Below the pieces are notes generated by a model. That model worked only from the letters and a program-made list of their open reading frames with translations. It did no database searches and had not been told where the DNA came from. Position numbers and translations under genes: made by a program. Shown in pieces: positions 32,903 through 50,852 of a stretch of 64,000 nt of DNA (positions within the stretch are counted from its first letter, which is position 1; each line of letters opens with the position of its first letter). Source of the stretch: Alphaproteobacteria bacterium (lineage in GTDB: Bacteria; Pseudomonadota; Alphaproteobacteria; Geminicoccales; Geminicoccaceae); contig JALUAG010000076.1 of NCBI GenBank assembly GCA_027045875.1, positions 1-64,000 on the forward strand. The letters run 5' to 3'.

Positions 32903-34231
32903 GTGATTGAAAAGGAACGACGGACCGGCGGGTTGGGTGAAGTGCTGCCGCCCCTGAGCGAACACGAGGCCAGGGTCGAGGCGTACCGGTGCCTGTTCTG
33001 CTACGACGCACCCTGCACCCACGCCTGCCCCACCCACATCGACATCCCCGGCTTCATCAAGAAGATCGCCACCGGCAATCTGCGCGGTTCGGCGCGCACC
33101 ATCATGGAGGCCAACATCCTGGGGGCCACCTGCGCGCGCGTCTGTCCGGTGGAGGAGCTGTGCGAGGGCGCCTGCGTGCTCAACGCCGAAGGCCGCCCCA
33201 TCATGATCGGCCGGCTGCAGCGCCACGCGACCGACCATCTGTTCGAGAACGGCATCCGGCTGTTCACGGCCGGCCCGCCGAGCGGCCGGCGGGTGGCGGT
33301 GATTGGGGCCGGGCCGGCGGGGCTCGCCTGCGCCGCCGAGCTGGCCCGCCTCGGCCATGCCGTCACCCTCTACGAGAAACGGGAGCTGCCCGGCGGCCTT
33401 TCCACCTACGGCATCATCGTGCTGCGCGAGCCGGTCGAGGTGGCGCTGGCCGAAGCGGAGATGATCGCCCAGCTCGGCGTCGACATCCGTACCGGCCGGG
33501 AACTCGGCCGCGACCTCACGCTGGACGCCCTGCTAGGGGAATACGACGCCGTGTTCCTGGGCATCGGTCTCGGCGGCTCGCCCGCGCTCGGCATCCCGGG
33601 CGAGGAGCTCGTCCTCGACGGGCTGACGTGGATCGAACGCAGCAAGTTCGAGCCCGAAAAGATGGAGGTGGGCAACGAGGTCTACGTGGTGGGGGCCGGC
33701 AACACCGCCATCGACGCCGCCACCATCGCCCGTCGGCTGGGTGCCGAGCGGGTGACCATCCTCTACCGGCGGAGCGAGCGGGAGATGCCCGCCTACCGGC
33801 ACGAGTACGAGTTCGCCCGCAGGGAAGGCATCGACTTCCGCTTCCTCACCCAGCCGCTGCGCGTGCTGGGCGAGAACGGGCGGGTCACCGGCATCGAATG
33901 CGTGCGCATGCGGCTCGGAAGCCCCGACGCCTCCGGCCGTGCGGCGCCGGAGCCGGTGCCCGGCTCCGAGTTCACCCTGCCCGCCGATCAGGTGATCAAG
34001 GCGATCGGCCAGGAGAAGCCGGCGCTGATCGCCGAGCTGGGTCTCGCTACCGAGCGGGGTTTCGTGAAGGTGGACGAGGCCTATCGCACCAGCATCGACC
34101 GGGTGTACGCCGGCGGCGATTGCATCCGCGCGCGGGGCGCGGCCTCCACCGTCATGGCCACCCAGGACGGCAAGCTGGCCGCCCGGGCCATCCACGAACA
34201 TCTCGGCGCGGCCGCCGCCGCGGCCGAATGA
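32903..34231 (+). CDS. preT: NAD-dependent dihydropyrimidine dehydrogenase subunit PreT
   Basis: PreT is the FAD/NADH, Fe-S subunit that passes electrons to PreA for reduction of uracil and thymine. The 442-residue protein has an N-terminal cluster region with Cys30, Cys33, Cys38 and Cys42 (CLFCYDAPCTHAC) and the following CARVCPVEELCEGAC. Two dinucleotide folds follow: VAVIGAGPAGLACA near residue 131 and VYVVGAGNTAIDAA near 260. The last part holds YAGGDCIRARG. I take the GTG at 32903; no nearby ATG is in frame. It opens the pyrimidine catabolic cluster, with preA 11 bp downstream. Confidence 0.94.
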   Translation: MIEKERRTGGLGEVLPPLSEHEARVEAYRCLFCYDAPCTHACPTHIDIPGFIKKIATGNLRGSARTIMEANILGATCARVCPVEELCEGACVLNAEGRPIMIGRLQRHATDHLFENGIRLFTAGPPSGRRVAVIGAGPAGLACAAELARLGHAVTLYEKRELPGGLSTYGIIVLREPVEVALAEAEMIAQLGVDIRTGRELGRDLTLDALLGEYDAVFLGIGLGGSPALGIPGEELVLDGLTWIERSKFEPEKMEVGNEVYVVGAGNTAIDAATIARRLGAERVTILYRRSEREMPAYRHEYEFARREGIDFRFLTQPLRVLGENGRVTGIECVRMRLGSPDASGRAAPEPVPGSEFTLPADQVIKAIGQEKPALIAELGLATERGFVKVDEAYRTSIDRVYAGGDCIRARGAASTVMATQDGKLAARAIHEHLGAAAAAAE

Positions 34232-34242
34232 GGAGGGACGCC

Positions 34243-35628
34243 ATGGCCGATCTGTCGATCGATTTCGCCGGGATCAAGTCTCCCAACCCCTTCTGGCTGG
34301 CCTCCGCGCCACCCACCAACAGCGGCGCCCAGATCCACAAGGCCTTCGAAGCCGGCTGGGGCGGCGCGGTGTGGAAGACCATCGGCGCGCCGGTGCTCAA
34401 CGTCTCCAACCGCTACGGGGCCTGGCACTACAACGGCCACAAGATGCTGGCCATCAACAACGTGGAGCTCATCTCCGACCGCCCGCTCGAGGTCAATCTG
34501 CGGGAGATGGCCGAGGTCAAGCGCGCCTGGCCGGACCGGGCGGTGATCGCCTCGGCGATGGTGGAATCGAACCCCGAGGCCTGGCGCGACATCGTCCGCC
34601 GCATCGAGGACACCGGCGCCGACGGGATCGAGCTCAACTACGGCTGCCCTCACGGCATGTCGGAGCGGGGCATGGGCAGCGCCGTCGGCCAGGTGCCCGA
34701 ATACTGCGAGCAGATCACCCGCTGGGTCATGGAAGCCGCCTCCATACCGGTGATCGTCAAACTCACGCCCAACGTCACCGACATCGTGCCGCCGGCGCGG
34801 GCGGCGGTGCGCGCGGGCGCCAACGCGGTGTCGCTGATCAACACCATCAACTCCATCATCGGCGTCGATCTCGACACCCTGGAGATCGTCCCCAGCATCG
34901 GCGGCAAGGGCAGCCACGGCGGCTACGCGGGGCCGGCCGTCAAGCCCATCGCCCTCAACATGCTGTCGTCGGTGGCGCGCGATCCGGAGATCCGCGAGGC
35001 GGGAGTGCCCATCTCCGGCATGGGCGGCATCGCCACCTGGCGCGACGCCGCCGAGTTCCTGCTCCTGGGTGCCGGCAGCCTCCAGGTCTGCACCTCGGTG
35101 ATGCACTACGGGTTCCGCATCATCGACGATCTCGTCGAAGGCCTGTCGGCCTGGATGGACGAGAAGGGCTTCGCCACCATCGCCGACGTGGTCGGACGTT
35201 CGGTCCACCGGATCTCCGATTTCAAGGACTTCGACCTCTCCTTCCGGGCGGTGGCGCGGATCGATCCGGCGAAGTGCATCCGCTGCGATCTCTGCTACAT
35301 CGCCTGCAACGACACCGCGCATCAGTGCATCGACCTCGTCGACGGCGAGGGTCGTCGGGTCGAGCCCCGCGCCTACGGACCGCGCGCCAACGGCAAGGAG
35401 GAGGCGACGGCCAACCGGCCGCTCCCGGTGGTGCGCGAGGCGGACTGCGTGGGCTGCCGCCTGTGCTACAACGTGTGCCCGATCGACGGCTGCATAGAAA
35501 TGGTGGAGGTCCCCTCGGGACGGCCGTCCATCACCTGGGCCGAGCTGACCGCCGCCCGGCCCGAGGTGGGCACCGATTGGGAGGCGATGAAGCGCTACCG
35601 CGAGGAAAACGGCATCGACATCCATTGA
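34243..35628 (+). CDS. preA: NAD-dependent dihydropyrimidine dehydrogenase subunit PreA
   Basis: PreA is the FMN catalytic subunit that reduces uracil and thymine to the 5,6-dihydro forms. Its 461 residues form a dihydroorotate-dehydrogenase-like barrel with NPFWLASAPPTNSG near the start, the active-site loop ELNYGCPHGMSERGMG (Cys is the proton donor in this family), and FMN-phosphate motifs. A C-terminal ferredoxin-like domain has two 4Fe-4S sets, CIRCDLCYIAC and CVGCRLCYNVCP. The ATG has AGGAGGGA upstream. It pairs with preT just before it. Confidence 0.96.
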   Translation: MADLSIDFAGIKSPNPFWLASAPPTNSGAQIHKAFEAGWGGAVWKTIGAPVLNVSNRYGAWHYNGHKMLAINNVELISDRPLEVNLREMAEVKRAWPDRAVIASAMVESNPEAWRDIVRRIEDTGADGIELNYGCPHGMSERGMGSAVGQVPEYCEQITRWVMEAASIPVIVKLTPNVTDIVPPARAAVRAGANAVSLINTINSIIGVDLDTLEIVPSIGGKGSHGGYAGPAVKPIALNMLSSVARDPEIREAGVPISGMGGIATWRDAAEFLLLGAGSLQVCTSVMHYGFRIIDDLVEGLSAWMDEKGFATIADVVGRSVHRISDFKDFDLSFRAVARIDPAKCIRCDLCYIACNDTAHQCIDLVDGEGRRVEPRAYGPRANGKEEATANRPLPVVREADCVGCRLCYNVCPIDGCIEMVEVPSGRPSITWAELTAARPEVGTDWEAMKRYREENGIDIH

Positions 35629-35671
35629 CGCGCCGAGCCCCCTCGGCCGCACCATACCGGAGGGAAGCCCC

Positions 35672-37051
35672 ATGCCGCTCTTGATCAGGAATGGCGAGAT
35701 CGTCACCGCCGATTCGCGTCAGCGCGCGGACATCTACGTGGAGGACGAGCAGATCACCCGCATCGGCCGCGATCTCGAGGTGCCGCCGGGCACCGAGGTG
35801 ATCGACGCTTCCGGCAAGTACGTCTTTCCGGGCTTCATCGACCCCCACGTGCACATCCATCTGCCCTTCATGGGCACCTTCGCCAAGGACGATCACGAGA
35901 CCGGCAGCAAGGCGGCGGTGGTGGGCGGCACCACCACCTACATCGAGATGTGCTGCCCCAACCGCAACGACGACCTGCTCGAAGGCTACGAGCTCTGGAA
36001 AGGCAAGGCCGAGGGCAGGAGCGTCTGCGACTACAGCTTCCACATGGCGGTGCCCAAGTTCGACGCGAAGAGCGAAGGCCAGCTCCGGGAGATCGTCGCC
36101 GACGGCATCGCCTCCTTCAAGGTGTTCCTCGCCTACAAGAACTTCTTCGGGGTGGGCGACGAGGAGCTGTACCAGACGCTGCGGCTCGCCAAGGAGCTCG
36201 GCGTGATCACCACCGCCCACTGCGAGAACGCCGAACTCGTGGCCCAGCTCCAGCCGCGCATCCTGGAGCAGGGCCTGACCGGTCCCGAAGGCCACGAGCC
36301 GAGCCGGCCGGAGAGCGTGGAGGCCGAGGGGACCCATCGCTTCGGCGTGTTCCTCGAGAACACCGGCGCCACCGGCTATGTGGTGCACCTCTCCTGCATT
36401 CCCGCCCTCGAGGCGGCGATGGCCGCCAAGGCGCGGGGCGTGCCCATCTTCGTCGAGGTGGTGATCCCCCATCTGCTGCTGGACAAGAGCTGGGCGGAGC
36501 GGCCGAACTTCGAGGGCGCCAAGTACGTCATGTCGCCGCCGCTGCGCGACCGGCGCAACCAGCCGGCGCTGTGGGAGGGGGTCAAGCGCGGTTTCGTCGA
36601 CACCGTCGCCACCGATCACTGCCCCTTCGACCTCGCCCAGAAGGACATGGGCCGCGGCGACTTCACCAAGATCCCGAACGGCATGCCGGCCATCGAGGAC
36701 CGGGTGAACCTGCTCTGGACCTACGGCGTGAGCCGGGGCGGGCTGGACATCCACCGCTTCGTCGATGCCGCCAGCACCCGTGCCGCCAAGCTGTTCGGGC
36801 TGTTCCCGAGGAAGGGCACCATCGCCGTCGGCTCCGACGCCGATCTCGTGATCTACGATGCCGACTGGCGCGGCAAATGCTCGGTCGAGACCCAGCACAT
36901 GAACAACGACTACAACGCCTTCGAGGGGTTCGAGCTCGACGGCCGGCCGGCGGTGGTCACGGTGCGCGGCAAGGTAGCGGCGCGCGACGGCCGGTTCGTC
37001 GGCGAGACCGGCCGCGGCCGCCTGCTGCGGCGCGAGCCGGCCTACTTCTGA
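35672..37051 (+). CDS. Dihydropyrimidinase
   Basis: This enzyme opens the ring of dihydrouracil or dihydrothymine to the N-carbamoyl-beta-amino acid. The 459-residue amidohydrolase has HVH at residues 59-61, the carboxylated Lys150 in ASFKVFLAYKNF, HCENAEL, VHLSC, and the final metal Asp in TDHCPFDLAQK. The family name overlaps with D-hydantoinase. Placement directly after preTA makes the pyrimidine role by far the likelier one. The ATG follows GGAGGGAAG. Confidence 0.94.
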   Translation: MPLLIRNGEIVTADSRQRADIYVEDEQITRIGRDLEVPPGTEVIDASGKYVFPGFIDPHVHIHLPFMGTFAKDDHETGSKAAVVGGTTTYIEMCCPNRNDDLLEGYELWKGKAEGRSVCDYSFHMAVPKFDAKSEGQLREIVADGIASFKVFLAYKNFFGVGDEELYQTLRLAKELGVITTAHCENAELVAQLQPRILEQGLTGPEGHEPSRPESVEAEGTHRFGVFLENTGATGYVVHLSCIPALEAAMAAKARGVPIFVEVVIPHLLLDKSWAERPNFEGAKYVMSPPLRDRRNQPALWEGVKRGFVDTVATDHCPFDLAQKDMGRGDFTKIPNGMPAIEDRVNLLWTYGVSRGGLDIHRFVDAASTRAAKLFGLFPRKGTIAVGSDADLVIYDADWRGKCSVETQHMNNDYNAFEGFELDGRPAVVTVRGKVAARDGRFVGETGRGRLLRREPAYF

Positions 37052-37060
37052 GGAGGTGCC

Positions 37061-37876
37061 GTGAACGCCACCGCAGTACCCGGGGAGCCGGCCGCGACCG
37101 GTGACGCGCTCGTATCCGTGCGCAACGTCACCATGATCTACGGTGGCGGCACGGTCGCCCTCAAGGACGCCACCCTCGATATCGAACAGGGCGAGTTCGT
37201 GAGCCTGATCGGCCCCTCGGGCTGCGGCAAGACGACCCTTTTGCGGCTGCTCGCCGATCTCATCGAGCCCAGCTCCGGCACCATCAGCATCGGCGGCAAG
37301 AGCCCGGCCGAGGCCCGGCGCGACCGCTCCTACGGCTACGTCTTCCAGGCGCCGACGCTGATGGAATGGCGGACCGTGCTCGCCAACGTCATGCTGCCGC
37401 TCGAGGTGATGGGGTTCCCGCGCGAGGAGCGCCAGCGCCGCGCCGAGGCGATGCTCGCCCTCGTGGGGCTCGACAAGTTCGCCGACAAGTACCCCTGGCA
37501 GCTCTCGGGCGGCATGCAGCAGCGGGTGTCCATCGCCCGGGCGCTGTCCTTCGATCCCCAGCTCCTCTACATGGACGAGCCGTTCGGCGCCCTCGACGAG
37601 ATCACCCGCGAGAACCTCAATCTCGAGCTGCTGCGGCTGTGGCGGGAGACCGGCAAGACGGTGATCTTCGTCACCCATTCGATCCCCGAGGCGGTGTTCC
37701 TCTCCACCCGCATCGTGGTGATGACCCCGCGACCCGGCAAGATCGAGACCGTGATCCCGGTCGACCTGCCGCAGCCGCGGGATTTCGAGACCCGGGAGAC
37801 GTCGCGGTTCTTCGAGATCGCCACCGAGGTGCGGGAGGCGCTGCGCAAGGGGCACGGGTACGAGGTCGAGGTCTGA
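37061..37876 (+). CDS. NitT/TauT-type ABC transporter ATPase for the pyrimidine cluster
   Basis: The 271-residue ATPase has Walker [11 protein letters not shown]-loop VFQAPTLMEWRTV, signature LSGGMQQR, Walker B LLYMDEPFGALDE and the H-loop His in VTHSIPEA. The type matches the nitrate/sulfonate/taurine and pyrimidine importers (SsuB, TauB, ThiZ-like). The start is GTG at 37061 behind AGGAGG, ten bases after the dihydropyrimidinase stop. It is the only ATPase in the cluster and would have to serve all three permeases encoded downstream. Confidence 0.92.
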   Translation: MNATAVPGEPAATGDALVSVRNVTMIYGGGTVALKDATLDIEQGEFVSLIGPSGCGKTTLLRLLADLIEPSSGTISIGGKSPAEARRDRSYGYVFQAPTLMEWRTVLANVMLPLEVMGFPREERQRRAEAMLALVGLDKFADKYPWQLSGGMQQRVSIARALSFDPQLLYMDEPFGALDEITRENLNLELLRLWRETGKTVIFVTHSIPEAVFLSTRIVVMTPRPGKIETVIPVDLPQPRDFETRETSRFFEIATEVREALRKGHGYEVEV

Positions 37877-37913
37877 GGAGGCCGGGGAGGAAACGGGCCG
37901 GAGCCTGGGTGCG

Positions 37914-39203
37914 ATGGACACGGTGATCAAGGAGGCGCGTCTCACGGGGCGCGACGGGCTCGTCGACATCGGCATCGAGGACGGCGTCATCGTCGCCATC
38001 GAGCCGCGACTCTCGGGCCGCGAGGAGATTCCGGCCCGGGGCAATCTGGTGTCGCCGAGCTTCTACGAGATCCACATCCACCTCGATGCGATCCTCACCG
38101 AGGGTGACCCGCGGCCCAACGAATCGGGCAGCCTCTGGGAGGGCATCGCCATCTGGGCGGAGAGGGTCAAGCGCCTCACCCCCGAGGACATCCGCGGCCG
38201 GGTGATGAAGGCGCTGCCCTGGTTCGTGGCCCACGGCGTGACCCACATCCGCTCCCATGTCGACGTCTGCGATCCGAAGCTCACCGCGCTCAGGGCCCTG
38301 CTCGCCATCAAGCGCGAGGTGGCCGATCTCATCGACATCCAGCTCGTCGCCTTTCCCCAGCTCGCGGTCTATTCCTTCGAAGGCGGCGAAGATCTCATGC
38401 GCGAGGCGATCTCGCTCGGCGTCGACGTCGTGGGCGGCATCCCCCACTACGAGATCACCCGCGAATACGGCGTCGAGCAGATCCGCTACGTCATGCGCCT
38501 CGCCCACGAGGCGGGGCTGCCGGTCGACGTCCACTGCGACGAGACCGACGACGATCACTCGCGCTTTCTGGAAACCCTGGCGGCGGAGACCATCCGCCTC
38601 GGCATGGGCGGCAGGGTGGCGGCCAGCCACACCACCGCCATGCACTCCTACAACAACGCCTATGCCGACAAGATCATCGGCAATCTCCGCCGCGCCGGGC
38701 TGCACGTCATCTGCAACCCGCCCGACAACGCCGTGCTGCAGGGACGCTTCGACCACTATCCCATCCGCCGCGGCCTCACGCGCGTGCGCGAGCTGCTGGC
38801 GGCCGGCGTCAACGTCGCGGCGGGGCACGATTCGGTGATGGATCCCTGGTATCCGATGGGCTGCGGGGATCCGCTCCACACCGCCTTCGTGCTCCTGCAT
38901 CTCGGCCACATGTCGGGGCGTGCCGACCGCCGTCACCTCTTTCCCATGCTGACCGCGCGCCCGGCCGCCATCTGGCACAACCGGCGGGTGACGGGCGAGG
39001 AGGGACTGGCCGGTCACGGCGTCGCCGTCGGCAATCCCGCCGATCTCATCGTCTGGCCGGTGCCCACCGAGGACGACGCGCTGCGCACCCTGCCGCCGCG
39101 CCGTTTCGTGCTCAAGCGGGGCCGGGTGGTGGCGGAGACACGGCCCGGGACCACCACCGTCCGCGGTGCCCCCGTGCACTTTCTCCGGGAGGCGGCGTCG
39201 TGA
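37914..39203 (+). CDS. codA: CodA-family cytosine deaminase, probable 5-methylcytosine specificity
   Basis: The 429-residue amidohydrolase aligns along its length with E. coli CodA as I remember that sequence. Metal and catalytic residues are present: His54 and His56 (HIHLD), Gln149 (AFPQ), His207 and Glu210 (HCDE), His239 (SHTTAMHSYNN) and Asp306 (GHD). The next residue is Ser307, where CodA has Asp314. Loss of that Asp is the reported marker of homologues that turn 5-methylcytosine into thymine. Product uracil or thymine would feed PreTA. It sits between the ABC ATPase and first permease, overlapping the latter as GTGA. Specificity is inferred; other ring substrates remain possible. Confidence 0.85.
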   Translation: MDTVIKEARLTGRDGLVDIGIEDGVIVAIEPRLSGREEIPARGNLVSPSFYEIHIHLDAILTEGDPRPNESGSLWEGIAIWAERVKRLTPEDIRGRVMKALPWFVAHGVTHIRSHVDVCDPKLTALRALLAIKREVADLIDIQLVAFPQLAVYSFEGGEDLMREAISLGVDVVGGIPHYEITREYGVEQIRYVMRLAHEAGLPVDVHCDETDDDHSRFLETLAAETIRLGMGGRVAASHTTAMHSYNNAYADKIIGNLRRAGLHVICNPPDNAVLQGRFDHYPIRRGLTRVRELLAAGVNVAAGHDSVMDPWYPMGCGDPLHTAFVLLHLGHMSGRADRRHLFPMLTARPAAIWHNRRVTGEEGLAGHGVAVGNPADLIVWPVPTEDDALRTLPPRRFVLKRGRVVAETRPGTTTVRGAPVHFLREAAS

Positions 39204-40000
39204 GCCGTTTCGATCCCGAGGCCCGACGGATGTCGCTGGCCGACAACGAGGTCACCCGGTGGCTGCTGTTCGGCATCGTCTTCATGGCGGTCTGGGAGGT
39301 GGCGGCGGCGGCCTACGACGCCCCCTTCCTGCTCCCCGGCCCGTCCCGCATCTTCGCCGAGTTCACCCGGGCGCCCCAGCTCATCATGATCAACGCCTGG
39401 ATCACTACCCAGGAGATCGTGCTAGGGTTCCTCATCGGTTCGGCGCTGGCGATGCTGGCGGCGCTCGTGCTGCTGGTGGTCCCGCGCTGGCTCGAGGACT
39501 TCATCTTCCGGGCGGTGATCACCCTCAACTCCATCCCCTTCGTGGCGCTCGCGAGCCTCGTCGTGGTCTGGCTCGGGGCCAACACCATCGCCTCCAAGGT
39601 GGCGATCGCCGGCCTCTACGCCTTCTTCGCCCTCGTCTACTTCGCCCACAAGGAGATGCTCTCCACCGATCCGCTCAAGGAGGAGCTGCTGACCTCCTAC
39701 AACGCGAGCTTCGGCCAGCGGGTGCGTCTCCTGAAGCTGCCCTCGGCGTTGCCGGTGATCTTCACGAGCCTGAAGGGAGCGGCCATGGCGGCGGTCAATG
39801 GCGCCATCGTCGGCGAGCTGTTCGGCGCCTTCCAGGGACTCGGTTTCATCATCCTGGATTCGCGCTATGTGGGGAATACCGCGCGGGTGTTCGTGGCCGC
39901 CGTGCTCTGCACCCTCGTGGGGTGGATGATGCTCGGCATTCTCGCGGTGCTCGAGCGACGCTTCGTCGGCTGGCATCTGGAGATGACCAAACAGACCTAG
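39200..40000 (+). CDS. ABC transporter permease 1 of the pyrimidine cluster (NitT/TauT type)
   Basis: The 266-residue permease has about six membrane segments and the typical opening LLPGPSRIFAEFT. The EAA-like loop follows the pattern LTSYNASFGQRVRLLKLPSALPVIFTSLK and ends in the AAVNGAIVGELFGAFQGLG region seen in SsuC/TauC-type proteins. The start is GTG at 39200, overlapping the deaminase stop. A binding protein gene follows after 10 bp, so this pair and the ATPase could form one complete importer. Confidence 0.9.
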   Translation: MSRFDPEARRMSLADNEVTRWLLFGIVFMAVWEVAAAAYDAPFLLPGPSRIFAEFTRAPQLIMINAWITTQEIVLGFLIGSALAMLAALVLLVVPRWLEDFIFRAVITLNSIPFVALASLVVVWLGANTIASKVAIAGLYAFFALVYFAHKEMLSTDPLKEELLTSYNASFGQRVRLLKLPSALPVIFTSLKGAAMAAVNGAIVGELFGAFQGLGFIILDSRYVGNTARVFVAAVLCTLVGWMMLGILAVLERRFVGWHLEMTKQT

Positions 40001-40010
40001 GGAGGTTGCG

Positions 40011-40997
40011 ATGATCCGAGGAACACGGACGGCGTTGTGGGCCCTGGCCCTGGCGGTGGGTGGCGCGACGGCGGCGGCAGCGGCCGAGCTCGAACCCGCG
40101 ACGATGATCGAATCCTGGTACATCCACGCCGAATCGGTCGGCGATCCGGTGGCGGTGGAGAAGGGGTTCTACCGCGAGGCCGGTCTCGACGTGACGGTGG
40201 TACCGGGCGGCCCCGGCCTGTCGCCGATCGGCCGGGTGCTGGCCGAGGCGCGGAGCGGCAAGCTCGTGCTGGGCATCGACTATCCCTACAACCTTCTGGA
40301 AGCGCGCCAGAAGCAGGGCCTCGACCTCGTGGTGCTGGGTGCCGACTTCCAGGAGTCGGCGATGCGCATCCTCTCCTGGAAGAAGATCGAGAGCCCGAAG
40401 GACATCCGGGGCCAGTTCGCCACCTGGATCGGCTACGACAAGCCCATCAAGGCGCTGATCGGCAAGGGTTGGGAGAACCAGATTCAGGTCGTCAACCAGC
40501 AGGGTGACCCGGCCACCCTCGGCGGATGGCTCGCGCGACAGTACGACTACGCCTCGGGCATGATCTACAACGAGGTGCTGGTGGCGGAGAAGGTCGTCGA
40601 GGATCCCTACTACGTCTATTCCTACAAGCAGTTCGGCGTGGACTGGCAGGAGAACGTGCTGTTCACCACCGAGCGCGTGCTCGAGAAGTTTCCGGAGAAG
40701 GTGAAGGCCTTCGTGCAGGCGCGCTATCGCGGCTTCAAGTACGCCCTCGACAATCCCGACGAGGCCGCCGACATCCTGCTCCAGTACAACCCCAATCTGG
40801 AGAAGGACTTCGAGCTGATCGGCATCGAGAAGATCCGCACCATCATGGTGACCGAGGAGAGCCGCAAGAACGGGCTCGGCTATCTCGACATGGGCAAGCT
40901 CGAGACCATGGCCGGCCAGCTCGTCGCCGCCGGCATCCTCGATTCCGAGGACATGACCGGCTTCGCACGGCCGATCCCGAGCGGCGTGATGCCCTGA
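40011..40997 (+). CDS. NMT1/THI5-like periplasmic binding protein 1
   Basis: The 328-residue exported protein has a signal peptide (about 1-24, Ala-rich cleavage region). The mature part opens with WYIHAESVGDPVAVEKGFYREAGLDVTVVPGG, the classic start of NMT1/THI5-like proteins that bind pyrimidine- or thiamine-related ligands. It contains the paired motif YDYASGMIYNEV. Gene position between permeases 1 and 2 suggests it delivers a pyrimidine base. The ligand cannot be chosen among uracil, thymine, cytosine and 5-methylcytosine. Confidence 0.87.
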   Translation: MIRGTRTALWALALAVGGATAAAAAELEPATMIESWYIHAESVGDPVAVEKGFYREAGLDVTVVPGGPGLSPIGRVLAEARSGKLVLGIDYPYNLLEARQKQGLDLVVLGADFQESAMRILSWKKIESPKDIRGQFATWIGYDKPIKALIGKGWENQIQVVNQQGDPATLGGWLARQYDYASGMIYNEVLVAEKVVEDPYYVYSYKQFGVDWQENVLFTTERVLEKFPEKVKAFVQARYRGFKYALDNPDEAADILLQYNPNLEKDFELIGIEKIRTIMVTEESRKNGLGYLDMGKLETMAGQLVAAGILDSEDMTGFARPIPSGVMP

Positions 40998-41016
40998 ACC
41001 GGGCGGAGAACGGGCG

Positions 41017-41874
41017 ATGCGCGCGCGGGCGGGTAATCTCGGACCGATGGCGGTGGTGGCGGCCGCGGCCGTGCTGCTCTACCTGCCGCTGGTCGTGATC
41101 GCCAACTACCCGCTCGCGCAGCGCGCCCTCGAGCGGGGCGCGGTGATGGACTGCGAGGGTCCCCTCGCCTGCGCCTTCTCCCTCAGGAACCCGGTGATCC
41201 CGGCCCCCGGCCAGCTTTTCACGGGGATCTACAATCTCCTGCTGCCGCTCGATTCGCCGAGCGCCATTCCGATCAACGCCTTCTGGACGGGGGCCGAGAC
41301 CCTGGTGGGGCTCGCGCTCGCCGCCCTGGTCGGGTTCCTGTTCGCCGTCGGCCTCGTGCTCTCGCGGGCCTTCGAGCTCTCGGTGCTGCCCTGGATCGTC
41401 GCCTCGCAGACGGTACCGATCATCGCCCTCGCGCCCATGCTGGTCGTGCTGCTCGGCCAGTACGGGGTCCAGGGCTGGCTGCCGAAGGCGATCATCGCCG
41501 CCTACATCGCCTTCTTTCCTGTGACCATCGGCCTCGCCAAAGGGCTGCGGAGCCCGGACAGCCTCACCCTCGACCTCATGAAGACCTACCGCGCGACCAC
41601 CTTCCAGACCTTCCTCAAGGTCCGGCTCCCGGCCTCGCTGCCCTATCTTTTCACCGCCTTCCGCATCTCCACCGCGGCCGCGCTGATCGGCGCCATCATC
41701 GCCGAGATGTCCACCATCAGCTTCTACGGACTCGGCAAGATGCTGTCCGAGAACGCTCGCGCCTCGGACGTGGTGGGCACATGGGTGCTGATGATCGCCT
41801 CGGCGGCGCTCGGCATCCTTTTGGTGGCCTGCGTCGGCTGGGTCGAACGGCTGGTGACGCCATGGCGACGCTAG
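41017..41874 (+). CDS. ABC transporter permease 2 of the pyrimidine cluster
   Basis: The 285-residue permease has an N-terminal membrane segment and then about five more. The region ETLVGLALAALVGFLFAVGL and the EAA loop LDLMKTYRATTFQTFLKVRLPASLPYLFTAFRISTAAALIGAIIAEM are of NitT/TauT type. A longer periplasmic loop (about residues 36-75) lies after the first segment. It overlaps the next permease by 13 bp, so the two probably form a heterodimer served by binding protein 2. Confidence 0.88.
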   Translation: MRARAGNLGPMAVVAAAAVLLYLPLVVIANYPLAQRALERGAVMDCEGPLACAFSLRNPVIPAPGQLFTGIYNLLLPLDSPSAIPINAFWTGAETLVGLALAALVGFLFAVGLVLSRAFELSVLPWIVASQTVPIIALAPMLVVLLGQYGVQGWLPKAIIAAYIAFFPVTIGLAKGLRSPDSLTLDLMKTYRATTFQTFLKVRLPASLPYLFTAFRISTAAALIGAIIAEMSTISFYGLGKMLSENARASDVVGTWVLMIASAALGILLVACVGWVERLVTPWRR

Positions 41875-42860
41875 GCTCGAGCCTCGCCGGCACGACGCGG
41901 GCCGAAGGCGGCGGACCGCCCCTTTCGGCCGTGCTGGCGCTGGCCGCGGGACAGGCCTTCCTGCTCCTCTTCGTGCTGCTGTGGTGGGAAAGGACCGACA
42001 TCGCCGCTCCCGCCTGGCAGCTCGGCCTCTATCTCGCGACCCTGGTCGCGGCCTTCGGCCTGTCGCGGCTCGCGGGCTGGATCGCCGAGCATCCGGCGGG
42101 TCCCGTGGTGCGCTTTCTCCCCGCCGCCTTCACCATGATCCTCACCCTGCTGGCGGCCGAGGCCCTGCTCCGCGCCTATCAGGTGCCGGCGGGTCTCATC
42201 CCCACCCCCACCGAGGTGCTCACCGTCCTCTGGCAGGCGCGCGACGTGCTGCTGCAGGACACCTTCCAGACCTTCGTCATGGAGGCGGTGATCGGCTTTC
42301 TGATCGGTGTCGGGGTGGCGCTTCCCGTGTCGCTGCTGATCGCCCGCTCGGGCTTTCTGCAGCGCGGCATGATGCCCTATGCGGCCGCCTTCTCCAGCAT
42401 CCCCATCCCCGCCCTGGCGCCGGTCTTCGTCCACATGTTCGGGCTCGACTGGCAATCCAAGGCGGCGGTGGTGGCGGTCACCGTCTTCTTTCCGGTGGTG
42501 GTCAACGTCGTGCGGGGACTGCTGGAGATCGATCCGCGGCTGCTCGACCTGATGCGTTCCTACGCGGCCAGCGACCGGCAGATCTTCGCCAAGGCCCGCG
42601 TGCCCAACGCCTTGCCCTTCTTCTTCAATGCCCTCAAGCTCGGCACCACCCTGGCGATGATCGGTGCCATCGTGGGCGAATTCTTCGGCGCCACCGGCAA
42701 GGGCCTCGGCTTCCGCATCCAGATCGAGGCCGGCCGCTTCGGCTTCGACATCGTCTGGGCGGCGATCATCGTCGCCTCGACGCTGGGCATCGCCTGGTTC
42801 GGCCTGGTCGCCTGGCTGGAGCGACGATTCACCGCCTGGCACGTCTCGCTCAGGGAGTGA
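41862..42860 (+). CDS. ABC transporter permease 3 of the pyrimidine cluster
   Basis: The 332-residue permease is longer than usual. Two additional N-terminal hydrophobic segments (about residues 24-45 and 50-72) precede the NitT/TauT core, which starts around residue 85 and contains GLIPTPTEVL. The core has the EAA loop LLDLMRSYAASDRQIFAKARVPNALPFFFNALKLG. The ATG at 41862 lies inside the end of permease 2, implying coupled translation. Binding protein 2 follows after 40 bp. Confidence 0.88.
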   Translation: MATLGSSLAGTTRAEGGGPPLSAVLALAAGQAFLLLFVLLWWERTDIAAPAWQLGLYLATLVAAFGLSRLAGWIAEHPAGPVVRFLPAAFTMILTLLAAEALLRAYQVPAGLIPTPTEVLTVLWQARDVLLQDTFQTFVMEAVIGFLIGVGVALPVSLLIARSGFLQRGMMPYAAAFSSIPIPALAPVFVHMFGLDWQSKAAVVAVTVFFPVVVNVVRGLLEIDPRLLDLMRSYAASDRQIFAKARVPNALPFFFNALKLGTTLAMIGAIVGEFFGATGKGLGFRIQIEAGRFGFDIVWAAIIVASTLGIAWFGLVAWLERRFTAWHVSLRE

Positions 42861-42900
42861 TCCGCATCAACGGCACGTCTCACAACTCGGGAGGGAAGGA

Positions 42901-43989
42901 ATGAAAGCGAAACGCATCGTCTCCGCGGTCGCGGCCACACTGGCCGCAGGCTGGATGGTACAGGCGGAGGCCGGCGAGGAGCTGGCCGTCAGCCTGCAGC
43001 TCAAATGGTTCCCGCAGGCCCAGTTCGCCGGCTATTTCGTGGCCAAGGAGAAGGGCTACTACGCCGAGGAAGGGCTCGACGTCACGCTGCTGCCGATCGG
43101 TGACCAGTCGCCGATCCAGACCGTGGTCTCGGGCGCCGTCGATTTCGGCACCACCTGGATCGCCGATCTCCTGACCGCCCGCGAGAAGGGGCTGCCGGTG
43201 GTGCACATCGCCCAGATGTTCCAGCGCTCCGGCTTCGCCATGGTGGCCCTCAAATCGAGCGGCATCGACAATCTCTGCGACATCAAGGGGCGCAGCGTCG
43301 GCGTCTGGCCCTCGGGCAACGAGTATCCGGCGGTGGCGCTGTTCCGCAAGTGCGGGCTCACGAGCTCCCTCGACGCCCGTGTCGCCAATCCCGACGTGAC
43401 GGCAGTGACCTATCCCTTCGATCCGGCCCTCGTCTTCCCCGAGCGCGTCGATCTCGTCTCGGCCATGATCTACAACGAGGTCAACCAGATCATCGGCCTC
43501 GGCTACGAGCTCGATCAGCTCAACGTGTGGATGCTCGCCGACGAGGGCATCAACCTGCTCGAGGATCTCGTGTTCACCACCGAGAAGGTGCTGAACGATC
43601 CCGACTACAAGGGCTCCGGCATGTCCGGCCGCGAGGTGGCGGCCCGCCTGCTGCGCGCCTCCCTCAAGGGCTGGGCCTGGGCGGTCGCCAACCAGGAGGA
43701 GGCGGTCGACGAGTACGTGCTGCCGGTCTGCGGCAACACCTGCAAGGGCTCGGGCACCCGTTCCGACGCCCGCGGCCACCAGCTCTGGCAGATGCGGGAG
43801 ATCGCCAAGCTGTTCGAGGCCGGGGCCACCGCCAGAGGCTGCGCCGGCTATCTCGAACCGGCGGCCTACGAGGCCTCCGTCCAGCTGCTGCTGGATCAGG
43901 AGATCCTCTCCAAGGCGCCTCCCGCCGCCACCGTCGACTACGGTCCCTGGGAGATGGCCACCGGCAAGACCGGCGCCGACTGCCAGTGA
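42901..43989 (+). CDS. NMT1/THI5-like periplasmic binding protein 2
   Basis: The 362-residue exported protein has a signal peptide (about 1-24, ending QAEAG). The mature start is LQLKWFPQAQFAGYFVAKEKGYYAEEGLDVTLLP, typical of NMT1/THI5 proteins, and VFTTEKVL near residue 220. It is only distantly like binding protein 1 and has extra Cys residues (CDIKG, RKCGL, CGNTC) that could form disulfides. The ATG has GGGAGGGA ahead. A perfect hairpin follows the stop. Confidence 0.87.
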   Translation: MKAKRIVSAVAATLAAGWMVQAEAGEELAVSLQLKWFPQAQFAGYFVAKEKGYYAEEGLDVTLLPIGDQSPIQTVVSGAVDFGTTWIADLLTAREKGLPVVHIAQMFQRSGFAMVALKSSGIDNLCDIKGRSVGVWPSGNEYPAVALFRKCGLTSSLDARVANPDVTAVTYPFDPALVFPERVDLVSAMIYNEVNQIIGLGYELDQLNVWMLADEGINLLEDLVFTTEKVLNDPDYKGSGMSGREVAARLLRASLKGWAWAVANQEEAVDEYVLPVCGNTCKGSGTRSDARGHQLWQMREIAKLFEAGATARGCAGYLEPAAYEASVQLLLDQEILSKAPPAATVDYGPWEMATGKTGADCQ

Positions 43990-43995
43990 TCGCAC

Positions 43996-44028
43996 GGACG
44001 GGTGCGGGCCGACCGCCCGCACCCGTCC
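43996..44028 (+). terminator. Perfect 14-bp hairpin after binding protein 2
   Basis: GGACGGGTGCGGGC (43996-44009) pairs perfectly with 44015-44028 around a five-base loop. There is no strong T-run after it. It lies seven bases after the stop of binding protein 2 and ahead of the last gene of the cluster. It may be a partial terminator or a 3' stabiliser for the transporter message; I cannot tell which. Confidence 0.6.
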
Positions 44029-44062
44029 TCGTCCGCTTCACGATTTCCGGGGAGGATCCGCC

Positions 44063-45307
44063 ATGCCACTCGATCCCAAGCGTACCGTTGCCGAACTCAA
44101 GGAGCTCCGGGCCCTCACAGGCGACGAGAACGGCGCCTGGCGGGTGGCCTGGACGGACACCTGGCTCAAGGCCCGCGAGTGGTATCGCGGGAAGCTCGCC
44201 GAACTGCCGGTGGAGGTCCATCAGGATGCGGCCGGCAACATCTGGGCCACCCTCGCGGGCGAGAGCGAGAAGGCCCTGCTGATCGGCGGCCATCTCGATT
44301 CCGTGCCGGGCGGCGGCTGGCTCGACGGCTGCCTCAACGTGCTGGCCGGGCTCGAGGTGCTGCGGCGGATCGCCGAACAGTACGATGGACGTCCGCCGGT
44401 GACGGTGCGCCTCGTCGACTGGGCCGACGAGGAGGGCGCCCGCTTCGGCCGCAGCCTGATGGGCTCCTCCGCTTTCTCCGGCACCCTCGAGCCGGAGGCC
44501 GAAAAGGACCGCACCGACAAGGACGGCACCCGCCTCGAGGACGCGCTGCGGCGCTGCGGGGTGGAGATGGACCGCATGCTGGAAGCGCAGCAGGAGCAGA
44601 AGAACGCGGCCGCCTATCTCGAGCTCCACATCGAGCAGGGGCCGGTGCTCCTCGACATTGACCTGCCGCTCGGGGCGGTGCTCGGCACCTTCGGCGTCGA
44701 ACGGCATGCCATCCGCTTCTTCGGCCAGGCGGCCCATTCGGGTTCCACGCCGATGGACAAGCGCAAGGACGCCTTCCTCGCGGCCGCCAAGATGGCACCC
44801 GAGATCTACGCCATCACCGACCGCAACGGCGGCGTCTGCACCCTCGGCTCCTGCGTCACGCGGCCCGGCATCGTCACGAGCGTGGTGGCCGAATGCGATC
44901 TGACCCTCGATCAGCGCCATCTCGACGCCGACGCCCTCGCGCGCATGCTGTTCGAGGCCAAGAAGGCCAGCCAGCGTTTCTCGCGGGAGGGGGGTCTGCC
45001 GGAGCCCGAGTGGAGCACCATCTGGCGGATCGAGCCCATCCTGTTCCATCCCGATCTGATCGAGTTCTGCGATCAGGCGATCCGCGAGGTGGTCGGCACC
45101 TCCCACAGGCTTCCGAGCGGCCCGCTGCACGATGCCGCCGAGGTGGCCCGGGCCGGCATCCCGACGGTGATGATGTTCGTCCAGAGCCTGCACGGCATCA
45201 GCCACAACAAGATCGAGGATACCAAGGAGGAGCATCTGGAGCTCTCGGTGCAGGCCCTCGACCGCCTCGCCGACAAGACCATCGACTGGATCCGACAGCA
45301 GTCCTGA
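44063..45307 (+). CDS. M20-family Zn hydrolase, probable beta-ureidopropionase
   Basis: The 414-residue enzyme belongs to the N-carbamoyl-amino-acid/allantoate amidohydrolase group. Metal ligands are visible as His77 (GGHLDSV), Asp88 (WLDGCLNV), Glu123-Glu124 (WADEEGARF), His189 (ELHIEQGPVL) and the late His in GISHNKIED. In this context it should split N-carbamoyl-beta-alanine or N-carbamoyl-beta-aminoisobutyrate to the beta-amino acid, CO2 and ammonia, completing the pathway. By family alone, N-carbamoyl-L-amino acids are an alternative. The ATG has GGGGAGGA upstream. Confidence 0.9.
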   Translation: MPLDPKRTVAELKELRALTGDENGAWRVAWTDTWLKAREWYRGKLAELPVEVHQDAAGNIWATLAGESEKALLIGGHLDSVPGGGWLDGCLNVLAGLEVLRRIAEQYDGRPPVTVRLVDWADEEGARFGRSLMGSSAFSGTLEPEAEKDRTDKDGTRLEDALRRCGVEMDRMLEAQQEQKNAAAYLELHIEQGPVLLDIDLPLGAVLGTFGVERHAIRFFGQAAHSGSTPMDKRKDAFLAAAKMAPEIYAITDRNGGVCTLGSCVTRPGIVTSVVAECDLTLDQRHLDADALARMLFEAKKASQRFSREGGLPEPEWSTIWRIEPILFHPDLIEFCDQAIREVVGTSHRLPSGPLHDAAEVARAGIPTVMMFVQSLHGISHNKIEDTKEEHLELSVQALDRLADKTIDWIRQQS

Positions 45308-45312
45308 GCCCT

Positions 45313-45355
45313 GCGGTTTCCCCGGCCCCTGGGAACGGGGGTCGGGGAAACCCGC
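45313..45355. terminator. Long GC-rich hairpin between convergent genes
   Basis: The left arm 45313-45329 (GCGGTTTCCCCGGCCCC) pairs with 45338-45355 with one bulge and one G-T/mismatch position, around a loop of about eight bases. It starts six bases after the hydrolase stop and reaches the stop codon of the convergent nuclease-like gene. A bidirectional factor-assisted terminator is likely; there is no U-tract. Confidence 0.6.
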
Positions 45356-45981
45356 TAGTCCGCCGCGCGGGCGGCGCGCTGCACGGCTTCGCCGATGGCA
45401 GAGAACCCCACCTTCTCGGGGCCCAGCTTTCCCAGAGTCGCGAGGCCGATGGTCGCTTGGCTGCCGACCGCACGGTCGAGCCGGAGGGTGGGCAGCACGT
45501 AGAACTCCCACTGATCCAGGTTCAACGGATCCAGTGTGCGCTTGTCCCTGTGGGCAAGGAGACAGAAGACGTACACATCCGCGATCCTTCGCTTTTCATC
45601 GGCGAAAGTATTCGTCTTGGCGTCCCATCCGCGAGTGGCTCCGATGCTGAAGCGAATGGCCGATCTCGTGTGCTGTTTCCATGTCTGCAAATAGGCCGCC
45701 GACTTCACCTCCACACGGATGCCGTCCCTCGTTTCGAGGTCCACAGCGTCCCATTCTCGTCGGGTTTCCTCAAGGCAACCCAAGGCCAAGGCGACGATGA
45801 ACTCCACGAGCACGCCACGTAACGCGTTGCTCACCAAGTCCGAAGCATACCATTGCCAGAACTCGAGCAGAGTGATGTCGAGTTGTTTCTCGCCAAGTCG
45901 AAAACGCTCGTTCCCGCTCTTTCGGACAATTTCCACCGCGTCCAGCTCTTTGCGGGCATGGTCCGGACCACGCTCTCCCAT
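45355..45981 (-). CDS. Orphan PD-(D/E)XK nuclease-like protein
   Basis: I do not recognise a named family for this 208-residue soluble protein. A restriction-endonuclease-like core is readable: helix Glu60 (LVEFIVALALG), Asp78 and Asp81 (WDAVDL), then Glu91-x-Lys93 (RVEVKSAAYLQ) with Gln99. A region rich in aromatics follows (ADVYVFCLLAH, LDQWEFYVLPT). This is the PD-(D/E)XK arrangement with helix Glu, Asp, ExK and Gln. No methyltransferase, helicase or other defence gene is adjacent. Base composition is clearly lower in GC than its neighbours, suggesting acquisition. The ATG at 45981 has GGGAGGGG about ten bases ahead. A solitary nuclease or DNA-repair-like role is inference. Confidence 0.7.
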   Translation of the reverse strand: MGERGPDHARKELDAVEIVRKSGNERFRLGEKQLDITLLEFWQWYASDLVSNALRGVLVEFIVALALGCLEETRREWDAVDLETRDGIRVEVKSAAYLQTWKQHTRSAIRFSIGATRGWDAKTNTFADEKRRIADVYVFCLLAHRDKRTLDPLNLDQWEFYVLPTLRLDRAVGSQATIGLATLGKLGPEKVGFSAIGEAVQRAARAAD

Positions 45982-46065: not shown

Positions 46066-47652
46066 CTACCCCCGGAAATCCTCTTCCCGCAGGTGGAGAA
46101 GGTGGACGCCGCCGGTGGCGAGGGCGGCGGCGAGGGCGGATTCGAGTTCGTCGAGGGAGCGTGGAGTGGCCACCCTGGCCCCCATCGCCCGGGCGAGAGC
46201 GGGGAAATCGGGATTGCGCAGCCGGGTGGCCACCGGCTGCATCGACCGGCCCACCATCTCGTCCCGGATCTGCCCCAGGGCGTCGTTGTCCCAGAGCAGC
46301 ACCACGAGCGGCAGGGCGAGCTCCACCGCCGTCGCGAGCTCCGCCAGCGTGTACTGGAAACCGTAGTCACCGACGATCGCCACCACGGGCGTGCCGGGGC
46401 GGGCGAGAGCGGCCCCGATCGCCGCCGGCAGGGCCCAGCCGAGGGTGCCGAAGCCCACCGGGTGCAGCCAACGCCGCGGCGCCGGTACCGGGAAGACGGC
46501 GTTGGCGGTGTAGGCGAGCTGGGTCATGTCGGAGGTGAAGACCGTCTCCGGCGGTGCCGTCCGGCGCACGACATCCAGCACCCGCCGGTGACGGGCGGCG
46601 AGATCGCCTCCCTCCGTTAACGCCCGTTCCCGGAGCGCGCCCACCCCTTCGGCGCCGGTGCGCTGAGGCAGGAGCGGCAGGAGCGCCTCGACGAAGGCCA
46701 CGGCATCGCCGCACACCGCCAGTTCCGCCGGATGACGGGCATCCGCGAGCCGGGCGGGATCGAGATCCACGCGGACGAGCCGCCCCGACGGGGAGAGACG
46801 GTCGCACCAGAGATCCGTCTCGGCGAGCTCGCTGCCCAGCACCAGCAGGAGATCGCGGTCGGCGAGGAAGGCCCGGACCTTCGGGCTCGCGAGGCTCGCG
46901 CCCAGATGCAGCGGATGCTCGGGCGGTACGAGCCCCTTGGCGGCGACCGTGGTGACCACCGGGGCGGCGAGGCGCTCGACCAGCGCGCGTGCCCGGTCGC
47001 CGAGGCCGAGGGCGCCGCCGCCCAGGATCACCGCCGGCCGTGCGGCCTCGCGAAGGAGGGCGGCCGCCCGGCGCACATCATCGTCCGGCGGAGACGGCGG
47101 CCCGGGAAGGGCCATCGGCCGCCAGTTGCCGGTGGCCGGTGCCGCCATCACGTCCAGCGGGATCTCGATGCAGGCCGGCCGCGGCCGGCCCGAGCGGAAG
47201 CCCGCCATCGCCCGCCCTACGAGTTCGGGGACCGCTTCGGGCGCGAGGGCGGTCGCGGCGAAGCCGGTGAGCGGCGCCGCCACCTCGCGCTGGCGAGCGA
47301 TCTCGTGCAGCCGCCCGCGACCGAGCCCCAGATCGGCGCGGTCGAGCGCGGTGGCCACGACCAGCATCGGTACCGAATCCGAGAAGGCCTGCCCGAGCGC
47401 GGTGGCGATGTTGGTGAGGCCCGGCCCGGTGATGACGAAGCAGGCCGCCGGCCGGCCGCTCGCGCGGGCGAAGCCGTCGGCCATGAAGCCGGCACCCTGT
47501 TCGTGGCGGGGCAGCACGTGCCGCAGCCGTCCCCCCTGGAGACCGCGATAGAGCTCGAGGTTGTGCACCCCCGGCACCCCGAAGGCGGTGTCGATGCCGT
47601 AGCCGGCGAGCAGCTCGATCAGGGCCTCGCCGGTGGTGGGCCGCTCGCTCAT
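46066..47652 (-). CDS. aruI: Thiamine-diphosphate decarboxylase, AruI-like (5-guanidino-2-oxopentanoate)
   Basis: AruI decarboxylates 2-ketoarginine to 4-guanidinobutyraldehyde in the arginine transaminase pathway. The 528-residue protein has the acetolactate-synthase fold: catalytic Glu51 in RHEQGAGFMADG, ITGPGLTNIATALGQA, and the ThDP motif GDYGFQYTLAEL ending in WDND. The specific stretches FGVPGVHNLELYRGL, LGLGRGRLHEI and RPRPACIEIPLDV resemble AruI more than biosynthetic acetolactate synthase. The neighbours (AruH-like aminotransferase and amino-acid ABC genes) support this. The enzymes for the next two steps are not here. Confidence 0.82.
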   Translation of the reverse strand: MSERPTTGEALIELLAGYGIDTAFGVPGVHNLELYRGLQGGRLRHVLPRHEQGAGFMADGFARASGRPAACFVITGPGLTNIATALGQAFSDSVPMLVVATALDRADLGLGRGRLHEIARQREVAAPLTGFAATALAPEAVPELVGRAMAGFRSGRPRPACIEIPLDVMAAPATGNWRPMALPGPPSPPDDDVRRAAALLREAARPAVILGGGALGLGDRARALVERLAAPVVTTVAAKGLVPPEHPLHLGASLASPKVRAFLADRDLLLVLGSELAETDLWCDRLSPSGRLVRVDLDPARLADARHPAELAVCGDAVAFVEALLPLLPQRTGAEGVGALRERALTEGGDLAARHRRVLDVVRRTAPPETVFTSDMTQLAYTANAVFPVPAPRRWLHPVGFGTLGWALPAAIGAALARPGTPVVAIVGDYGFQYTLAELATAVELALPLVVLLWDNDALGQIRDEMVGRSMQPVATRLRNPDFPALARAMGARVATPRSLDELESALAAALATGGVHLLHLREEDFRG

Positions 47653-49605: not shown

Positions 49606-49631
49606 GCTTTGCCTGCCGCGGGGTGCTTCCC

Positions 49632-50852
49632 ATGGGACCCGCTTCCGCCACCGGCGACGACCGCCGGCGCTTCGCCGCACGGGTGGCACGCATCGCCGAA
49701 CGCCCGGGCGGCGGCTGGGCCGTCCATTTCGACGCCGTGGCGCGCCGCGACCGCGGCGAGGACGTCATCCTGCTCTCCATCGGCGATCACGAGTTCGCCA
49801 CCCCCGAGCCGATCGTGGAGGCGGCGATCGCCGCCCTCCGCGCCGGCCATCACCACTACACGCCGGCCGCCGGCATTCCGGAACTGCGGCGCGCCATCGC
49901 CGCCTTCTATGCCGACAAGGCGGCGGTGCCGGTGACCTCCGACAACATCGTCGTCGTGCCGGGCGCCCAGGGCGGGCTCTACGCCCTCCTCCAGTGCCTC
50001 GCGGAGAGCGGCGACGAGGTCCTGGTGCCCGAGCCCATGTACGTGACCTATCCGGAGACGGTGGCGGCGAGCGGGGCTCGGCTGGTCCCGGTCCCGCTGT
50101 CGCCGGAACGCGGTTTCGCCCTCGATCCCGCGGCGCTGGCGGCACGGGTCGGGGGGCGCACGCGGGCGGTGCTGGTCAACACCCCGCACAATCCCACCGG
50201 CACCGTGGCGAGCCGGGAGGCCATGGGCGAACTCGTCGAGCTCTGCCGGCGGCACGGGCTGTGGCTGATCTCGGACGAGGTCTACGCCGGCATGGTCTAC
50301 GGCGGCGGCCATGTGAGCGCCCTCGCCTTCGCCGATCGCCACGAGCGCATCGCCGTCGTGGAGAGCCTGTCCAAGAGCTGCGCCATGACCGGCTGGCGGG
50401 TGGGCTGGACCGTGACCCCGCCCGACCTCGCCCACTATCTCGAACACCTGACGGGCGTCGTCACCTACGGCCTGCCACCCTTCATCCAGGAGGCGGCGGT
50501 CGAGGCGATGGCCCGGCTCGACGAGCTCGAGGGGAACATCGCCCGGCTCTACGAGCGGCGCGCCGCCCGGGTGTGCGATACCCTCGCCGCCGATCCCGAC
50601 CTCCTCGTCCACCGGCCCCGCGCCGGCATGTTCGTGATGCTCGGGGTCGCCCGCTTCGGCCTCGACGCCGAGCGCTTCGCCCGCCGGCTGCTGGACGAGG
50701 AGGGGGTGTCGCTGCTGCCCGGCGAGAGCTTCGGCCCCGCGACCAGGGACTGCGTGCGGCTGAGCCTGTCGGCCGACGAAGCCGATCTCGACGAGGCCTG
50801 CCGGCGCATCCTCCGTTTCACCGCCGCGCTGCGGGCCGCCGGGCGGCGCTGA
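49632..50852 (+). CDS. aruH: PLP aminotransferase, AruH-like (arginine:pyruvate transaminase)
   Basis: AruH transaminates arginine with pyruvate to give 2-ketoarginine and alanine. The 406-residue class I/II aminotransferase has VILLSIGDHEFATP, PGAQGGLYALLQCLAESGDEVLVPEPMYVTY, NTPHNPTG, ISDEVYAGMVY, the PLP-Lys in SLSKSCAMTGWRVGW, and a C-terminal GMFVML. The order and wording of these stretches closely follow Pseudomonas AruH as I remember it. It is divergent from the transporter-aruI operon. A GTG at 49623 could add three residues. The end overlaps the convergent exporter gene by 35 bp. Confidence 0.83.
   Translation: MGPASATGDDRRRFAARVARIAERPGGGWAVHFDAVARRDRGEDVILLSIGDHEFATPEPIVEAAIAALRAGHHHYTPAAGIPELRRAIAAFYADKAAVPVTSDNIVVVPGAQGGLYALLQCLAESGDEVLVPEPMYVTYPETVAASGARLVPVPLSPERGFALDPAALAARVGGRTRAVLVNTPHNPTGTVASREAMGELVELCRRHGLWLISDEVYAGMVYGGGHVSALAFADRHERIAVVESLSKSCAMTGWRVGWTVTPPDLAHYLEHLTGVVTYGLPPFIQEAAVEAMARLDELEGNIARLYERRAARVCDTLAADPDLLVHRPRAGMFVMLGVARFGLDAERFARRLLDEEGVSLLPGESFGPATRDCVRLSLSADEADLDEACRRILRFTAALRAAGRR

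Follow-up and report, generated by a model that had tools for sequence, protein, structure and literature searches.

The pyrimidine operon

The window, a 64,000-nucleotide stretch of DNA from an alphaproteobacterium of the Geminicoccaceae, carries an 11-gene operon (positions 32903–45307) that is read entirely from the forward (+) strand. The first gene, preT (32903–34231; GTG start assumed), encodes a PreT-type NAD(P)H/FAD subunit of dihydropyrimidine dehydrogenase with Fer4_20 and pyridine-nucleotide oxidoreductase domains, and preA (34243–35628) encodes the PreA subunit of that enzyme (NF006183 equivalog, 672 bits against a cut-off of 335). Next come hydA (35672–37051), for dihydropyrimidinase (TIGR02033, 532 against a cut-off of 393), and the gene of an ABC ATPase (37061–37876) that is probably common to both permease/binding-protein sets. 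The fifth gene (37914–39203) encodes the deaminase that is the subject of this analysis. Its stop codon is overlapped by the gene of ABC permease 1 (BPD_transp_1, 39200–40000), which is followed by that of substrate-binding protein 1 (NMT1/THI5-like, 40011–40997; nearest solved structures 4nmy and 3ix1, the latter the pyrimidine binder ThiY); both are assigned to the deaminase module described below. The operon continues with ABC permease 2 (41017–41874), ABC permease 3 (41862–42860) and substrate-binding protein 2 (NMT1/THI5-like, 42901–43989; nearest solved relative 3ix1), and ends with a hydantoinase/carbamoylase-family amidohydrolase (44063–45307; TIGR01879, 271 against a cut-off of 204) that is presumed to be β-ureidopropionase. 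For each binding protein, the closest relatives are pyrimidine binders.

An earlier note on this DNA described a complete cluster for degradation and uptake and saw in it a destination for thymine. PreT, PreA, HydA, the amidohydrolase and the ABC genes are indeed present, but the operon cluster in the window holds no transaminase for the last pathway step. Methylmalonate-semialdehyde dehydrogenase is encoded elsewhere in the genome, as is an NCS1-type permease that could serve as an alternative importer of cytosine. The operon context strongly supports a pyrimidine-base deaminase. Thymine does enter the reductive pathway, but uracil enters it equally, and the operon therefore does not tell cytosine from 5-methylcytosine.

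Some features of the operon and its surroundings were recorded in passing. PreA is 461 residues long, and its match to the equivalog model (422 positions) ends at residue 439; its C-terminal stretch is shared with a second genome of the same family (G014), and other alphaproteobacterial hits stop near residue 434 or earlier. Directly downstream of the operon lies a 208-amino-acid frame (45355–45981, −) that has no NCBIfam match at an E value of 1e-40. In the area beyond it (46066–47652, −; 49623–50852, +), 5-guanidino-2-oxopentanoate decarboxylase is found above cut-off, near an apparent amino-acid ABC transporter and a PLP aminotransferase-like protein. This suggests that a putative arginine-degradation cluster adjoins the pyrimidine operon.

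The deaminase and its family

The deaminase reading frame is intact, with 429 codons and zero internal stops. Comparison with a congener (G002) gave a dN of 0.058 and a dS of 0.51, indicating that the gene is under purifying selection. It is the sole CodA-type gene in the 99.9% complete genome, and a plasmid search returned 354 records, none above 60% identity, with no plasmid carrier of the window clade among them. E. coli CodA (a cytosine/isoguanine deaminase; PDB 1K6W, 3O7U) is the best match overall in both sequence and structure. In the alignment with 1k6w (E value 4e-116, 391 bits, residues 3–416), His54, His56, Gln149, His207, Glu210, His239 and Asp306 match CodA, and Trp312 corresponds to CodA Trp319. 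These seven catalytic and metal residues are near-invariant across 133 aligned relatives, which bears out the earlier claim that all of them are kept. The complete set is also retained in Kpn00632 of Klebsiella pneumoniae (PDB 4R7W, 4R85, 4R88), an enzyme of the same fold whose PDB entries are titled "5-methylcytosine deaminase"; identity to these two solved proteins is 45–48%.

An AlphaFold2 model of the deaminase (pLDDT 88.4) is closest to CodA with phosphonocytosine (Z 55.1), followed by Kpn00632 (Z 54.0 over 400 residues, 44% identity in this comparison). AtzC, an N-isopropylammelide aminohydrolase, was less similar than CodA (29% identity, Z 49.6). In the model, catalytic Gln149 sits just past barrel strand 3 (E141–147). 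The catalytic Gln follows strand 3 in the CodA cluster and strand 1 in the GuaD cluster (PMC12828455), and the latter, which comprises guanine, 8-oxoguanine and isocytosine deaminases, was excluded on this ground. The protein exceeds the cut-off of the NCBIfam model PRK07572, "cytosine deaminase" (467 against 438), and falls below that of PRK09230 (454 against 483), which Kpn00632 passes (600 bits). A tree placed it inside a 103-row CodA group, separated by starred branches from outgroups of 35–39% identity, and not among non-cytosine amidohydrolases. Judged by its sequence, the gene product is a CodA-family, cytosine-class deaminase.

Residue 307 and the active-site pocket

Codon 306 is GAT (38829–38831) and codon 307 is TCG (38832–38834), so that Ser307 falls on CodA Asp314, as the earlier note had read it. 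The resulting GHDS motif is identical to that of a solved CodA D314S mutant (PDB 1r9z), and Ser likewise occupies the discriminating site of Kpn00632, which reads ...FAQDSIQDPW. The discriminating residue of 5-methylcytosine deaminase is described as serine, and CodA barely uses 5-methylcytosine unless the Asp is removed (PMC6186785, citing the 2014 discovery paper), in agreement with the note's statement that CodA homologues lacking this Asp were shown to act on 5-methylcytosine. The activity of Kpn00632 was reported by Hitchcock et al. (2014; cited in PMC6186785). By analogy with these enzymes, loss of the Asp supports tolerance of a methyl group. Two other enzymes, from Rhodobacter and Corynebacterium, are said to have been included in the 2014 study.

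The 133 aligned relatives have Ser at position 307 in 62 cases, Asp in 44, Cys in 25 and a gap in 2. In a broader sample that leaves out the window clade, the counts are 42 for Ser, 64 for Cys and 31 for Asp (Ser or Cys in 106 of 137 homologues); both sets are samples collected with the window protein as query, and the proportions are rough. Cys was found in all 51 alphaproteobacterial genomes outside the window genus whose homologues were read (at least 42% identity), and two more alphaproteobacterial MAG sequences (L088 and L093) have Ser. Replacement of the Asp is therefore real but not unusual, since most family members carry a residue other than Asp. It follows that this state is not enough to identify a 5-methylcytosine deaminase; Ser307 simply places the window protein outside the Asp-bearing CodA subgroup. 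Asp appears to be the derived state, in the CodA clade of Bacillota and gammaproteobacteria. A rule of thumb is thus corrected: a missing Asp is usual in the family and on its own gives no basis for naming a 5-methylcytosine deaminase.

A deaminase tree was built without columns 75, 150 and 307. The window protein falls, with full support, in a clade of five rows whose other members are its congener and three Thermaceae sequences, and this clade nests in a larger starred group of 24 rows, all with Ser, that spans Chloroflexota, Dormibacterota, Actinomycetota, Armatimonadota and others. The Kpn00632 clade lies within the Asp-bearing CodA group, so the Ser of Kpn00632 looks secondary. Constraining the window and Kpn00632 clades to be each other's nearest kin cost 104 log-likelihood units and was rejected (AU p = 0.0004). 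A constraint that united all Ser-type rows cost 17 units and was not rejected (p = 0.3), and Ser may therefore still have had a single origin.

Around the predicted active site, the window clade differs from CodA, Kpn00632 and almost every other relative at S49, Y51, I53, P270 and A303 (P56, V58, P60, L277 and F310 in CodA). W75 and L150 are Phe and Glu in both CodA (Phe82, Glu157) and Kpn00632. Relative to CodA, the changes thus include Asp314 to Ser307, Phe310 to Ala303, Glu157 to Leu150 and Phe82 to Trp75; relative to Kpn00632, which shares the Ser, the pocket still differs at W75 (F), L150 (E), A303 (F), I53 (P) and Y51 (V). The Thermaceae orthologues (79–81% identity; Calidithermus chliarophilus, C. 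roseus and Meiothermus granaticius) belong to another phylum and have the same pocket residues as the window protein. No experimentally assigned function was found for these uncharacterized proteins. In the model, the unusual residues map to barrel strands 1, 3, 7 and 8 or to the positions that directly follow them, with W75 in the segment after strand 1. They appear to surround the active-site face and may approach the substrate. The predicted placement of Ala303, in the stead of Phe310 and beside Ser307, suggests more room near C5. Since Asp314 is absent and Ala303 stands for Phe310, a methyl group should be tolerated in this part of the pocket, and activity on both cytosine and 5-methylcytosine would be expected. 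The changes peculiar to the window clade could also have shifted specificity elsewhere.

Conservation of the operon and its deaminase module

The 11-gene operon recurs with identical order and orientation in C. chliarophilus, C. roseus and M. granaticius (L055, L056 and L057; distantly related hot-water bacteria of the Thermaceae, Deinococcota), with 62–85% identity between the encoded proteins and those of the window. Alphaproteobacterial deaminases outside the window genus are about 42–49% identical to the window protein. The contrast between this collinear operon and the more divergent alphaproteobacterial deaminases argues for transfer of the operon between phyla, and we consider transfer in either direction the best reading of these sequences.

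The G014 genome carries the operon at 65–85% identity (L187, 5772–15200), but this copy lacks the deaminase, permease 1 and binding protein 1, and its ATPase is followed directly by permease 2. No match to the deaminase was found elsewhere in the G014 genome at an E value of 1e-60. In a tree of the eight shared genes, G014 joins the window genus (99/98) and the Thermaceae fall outside; on this grouping, it is more economical for G014 to have lost the trio than for the same site to have gained it twice. Two ANGP1 MAGs (L063 and L065) present the reverse arrangement: an ATPase stands together with the deaminase, permease 1 and binding protein 1, with no degradation genes nearby. Permease 1 is kept next to the deaminase in these two and in the three Thermaceae. 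The absence of the trio from G014 and the set standing alone in L063 and L065 indicate that the trio behaves as an import-and-deaminate module, which probably imports and deaminates an aminopyrimidine and passes the product to the reductive pathway. G014, with its operon minus the module, and the stand-alone module in L063 and L065 make the substrates of the deaminase and of its importer directly testable.

Three more distant operons (L193, L196 and L199) have the ATPase, permeases 2 and 3, binding protein 2 and preT/preA with no deaminase. Their composition suggests that these transport genes together encode a putative importer of the oxo bases. NMT1-type pyrimidine transporters encoded next to dihydropyrimidine dehydrogenase were sought in the literature, and none was found. 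Other transport contexts occur in the family: E. coli codA adjoins codB, unlike the window gene with its degradation operon and ABC transport, and in a Chloroflexi MAG (L061) a Ser-type relative lies beside a PF02133 cytosine/uracil permease and hydantoinase/carbamoylase-type genes.

Substrate of the deaminase

We regard it as likely that the enzyme is a CodA-type metal-dependent deaminase of free 4-amino-2-oxopyrimidine bases that works within an import-and-degradation operon. Permease 1 and binding protein 1, with the operon's shared ATPase, would import such a base. By analogy with CodA, a metal-activated water would deaminate it at a site formed by Asp306, His239 and Glu210, with Gln149 on the 2-oxo group. 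The 4-amino group would be replaced by oxygen, which would turn cytosine into uracil or 5-methylcytosine into thymine. PreT/PreA, dihydropyrimidinase and the carbamoyl-amidohydrolase would then convert the product to a β-amino acid, ammonia and CO2.

The choice of base was weighed against the same evidence. An ordinary cytosine deaminase, used for salvage or as a nitrogen source and acting on 5-methylcytosine at most as a side activity, comes fairly near to an even chance. Cytosine is the most abundant base of its kind, the genome has this one CodA-type gene, and the NCBIfam family name and cut-off agree, but the lack of Asp314 and several pocket residues unlike those of CodA speak against so conventional an enzyme. 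The earlier note had instead called the protein a likely 5-methylcytosine deaminase. Of that proposal, the CodA family, the non-Asp residue at the discriminating position and the reductive operon all stand, and the residue is the same as in Kpn00632; the reading of the Ser as a special mark is not supported. An enzyme dedicated to 5-methylcytosine, with this base as its preferred and physiological substrate and thymine as its product, is possible but on the doubtful side. It would accord with the shared Ser, with the gain of 5-methylcytosine use by CodA on loss of the Asp (PMC6186785), with the extra room that Ala303 should give, with thymine as a substrate of the reductive pathway and with the one DNA C5-methyltransferase gene of the genome. 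Set against this, Ser or Cys is the common family state, the joint clade with Kpn00632 was rejected and no gene of the operon is specific for thymine. The unusual pocket of the window clade, and the closeness of the binding proteins to 3ix1, a thiamine-pyrimidine binder, would also suit some other amino-pyrimidine, for instance 5-hydroxymethylcytosine, a pyrimidine derived from thiamine, or a triazine or isocytosine-like compound. We consider this improbable, as the conserved Gln149 (CodA Gln156) points to a 2-oxo group, the downstream reductive pathway needs uracil- or thymine-like products and AtzC-type structures are more distant.

Taken together, the most likely reading is a deaminase of the cytosine class with 5-methylcytosine as an additional substrate. 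The enzyme probably deaminates 5-methylcytosine to some extent; that this base is the preferred one seems to us a minority prospect. The protein is relevant to the bacterial disposal of 5-methylcytosine, a process with few proven enzymes. The chief interest of the locus lies in the conserved cross-phylum operon, the natural loss of the module and the unusual pocket, and not in the Ser by itself. A more specialized role, which we think rather unlikely, is that the window and Thermaceae proteins form a distinct subfamily whose pocket (Trp75, Leu150, Ala303, Ile53 and Tyr51) is adapted to a 5-substituted cytosine and whose module includes its own importer. The substrate would then be 5-methylcytosine or 5-hydroxymethylcytosine, and the operon would provide a dedicated route for modified DNA bases from the environment.
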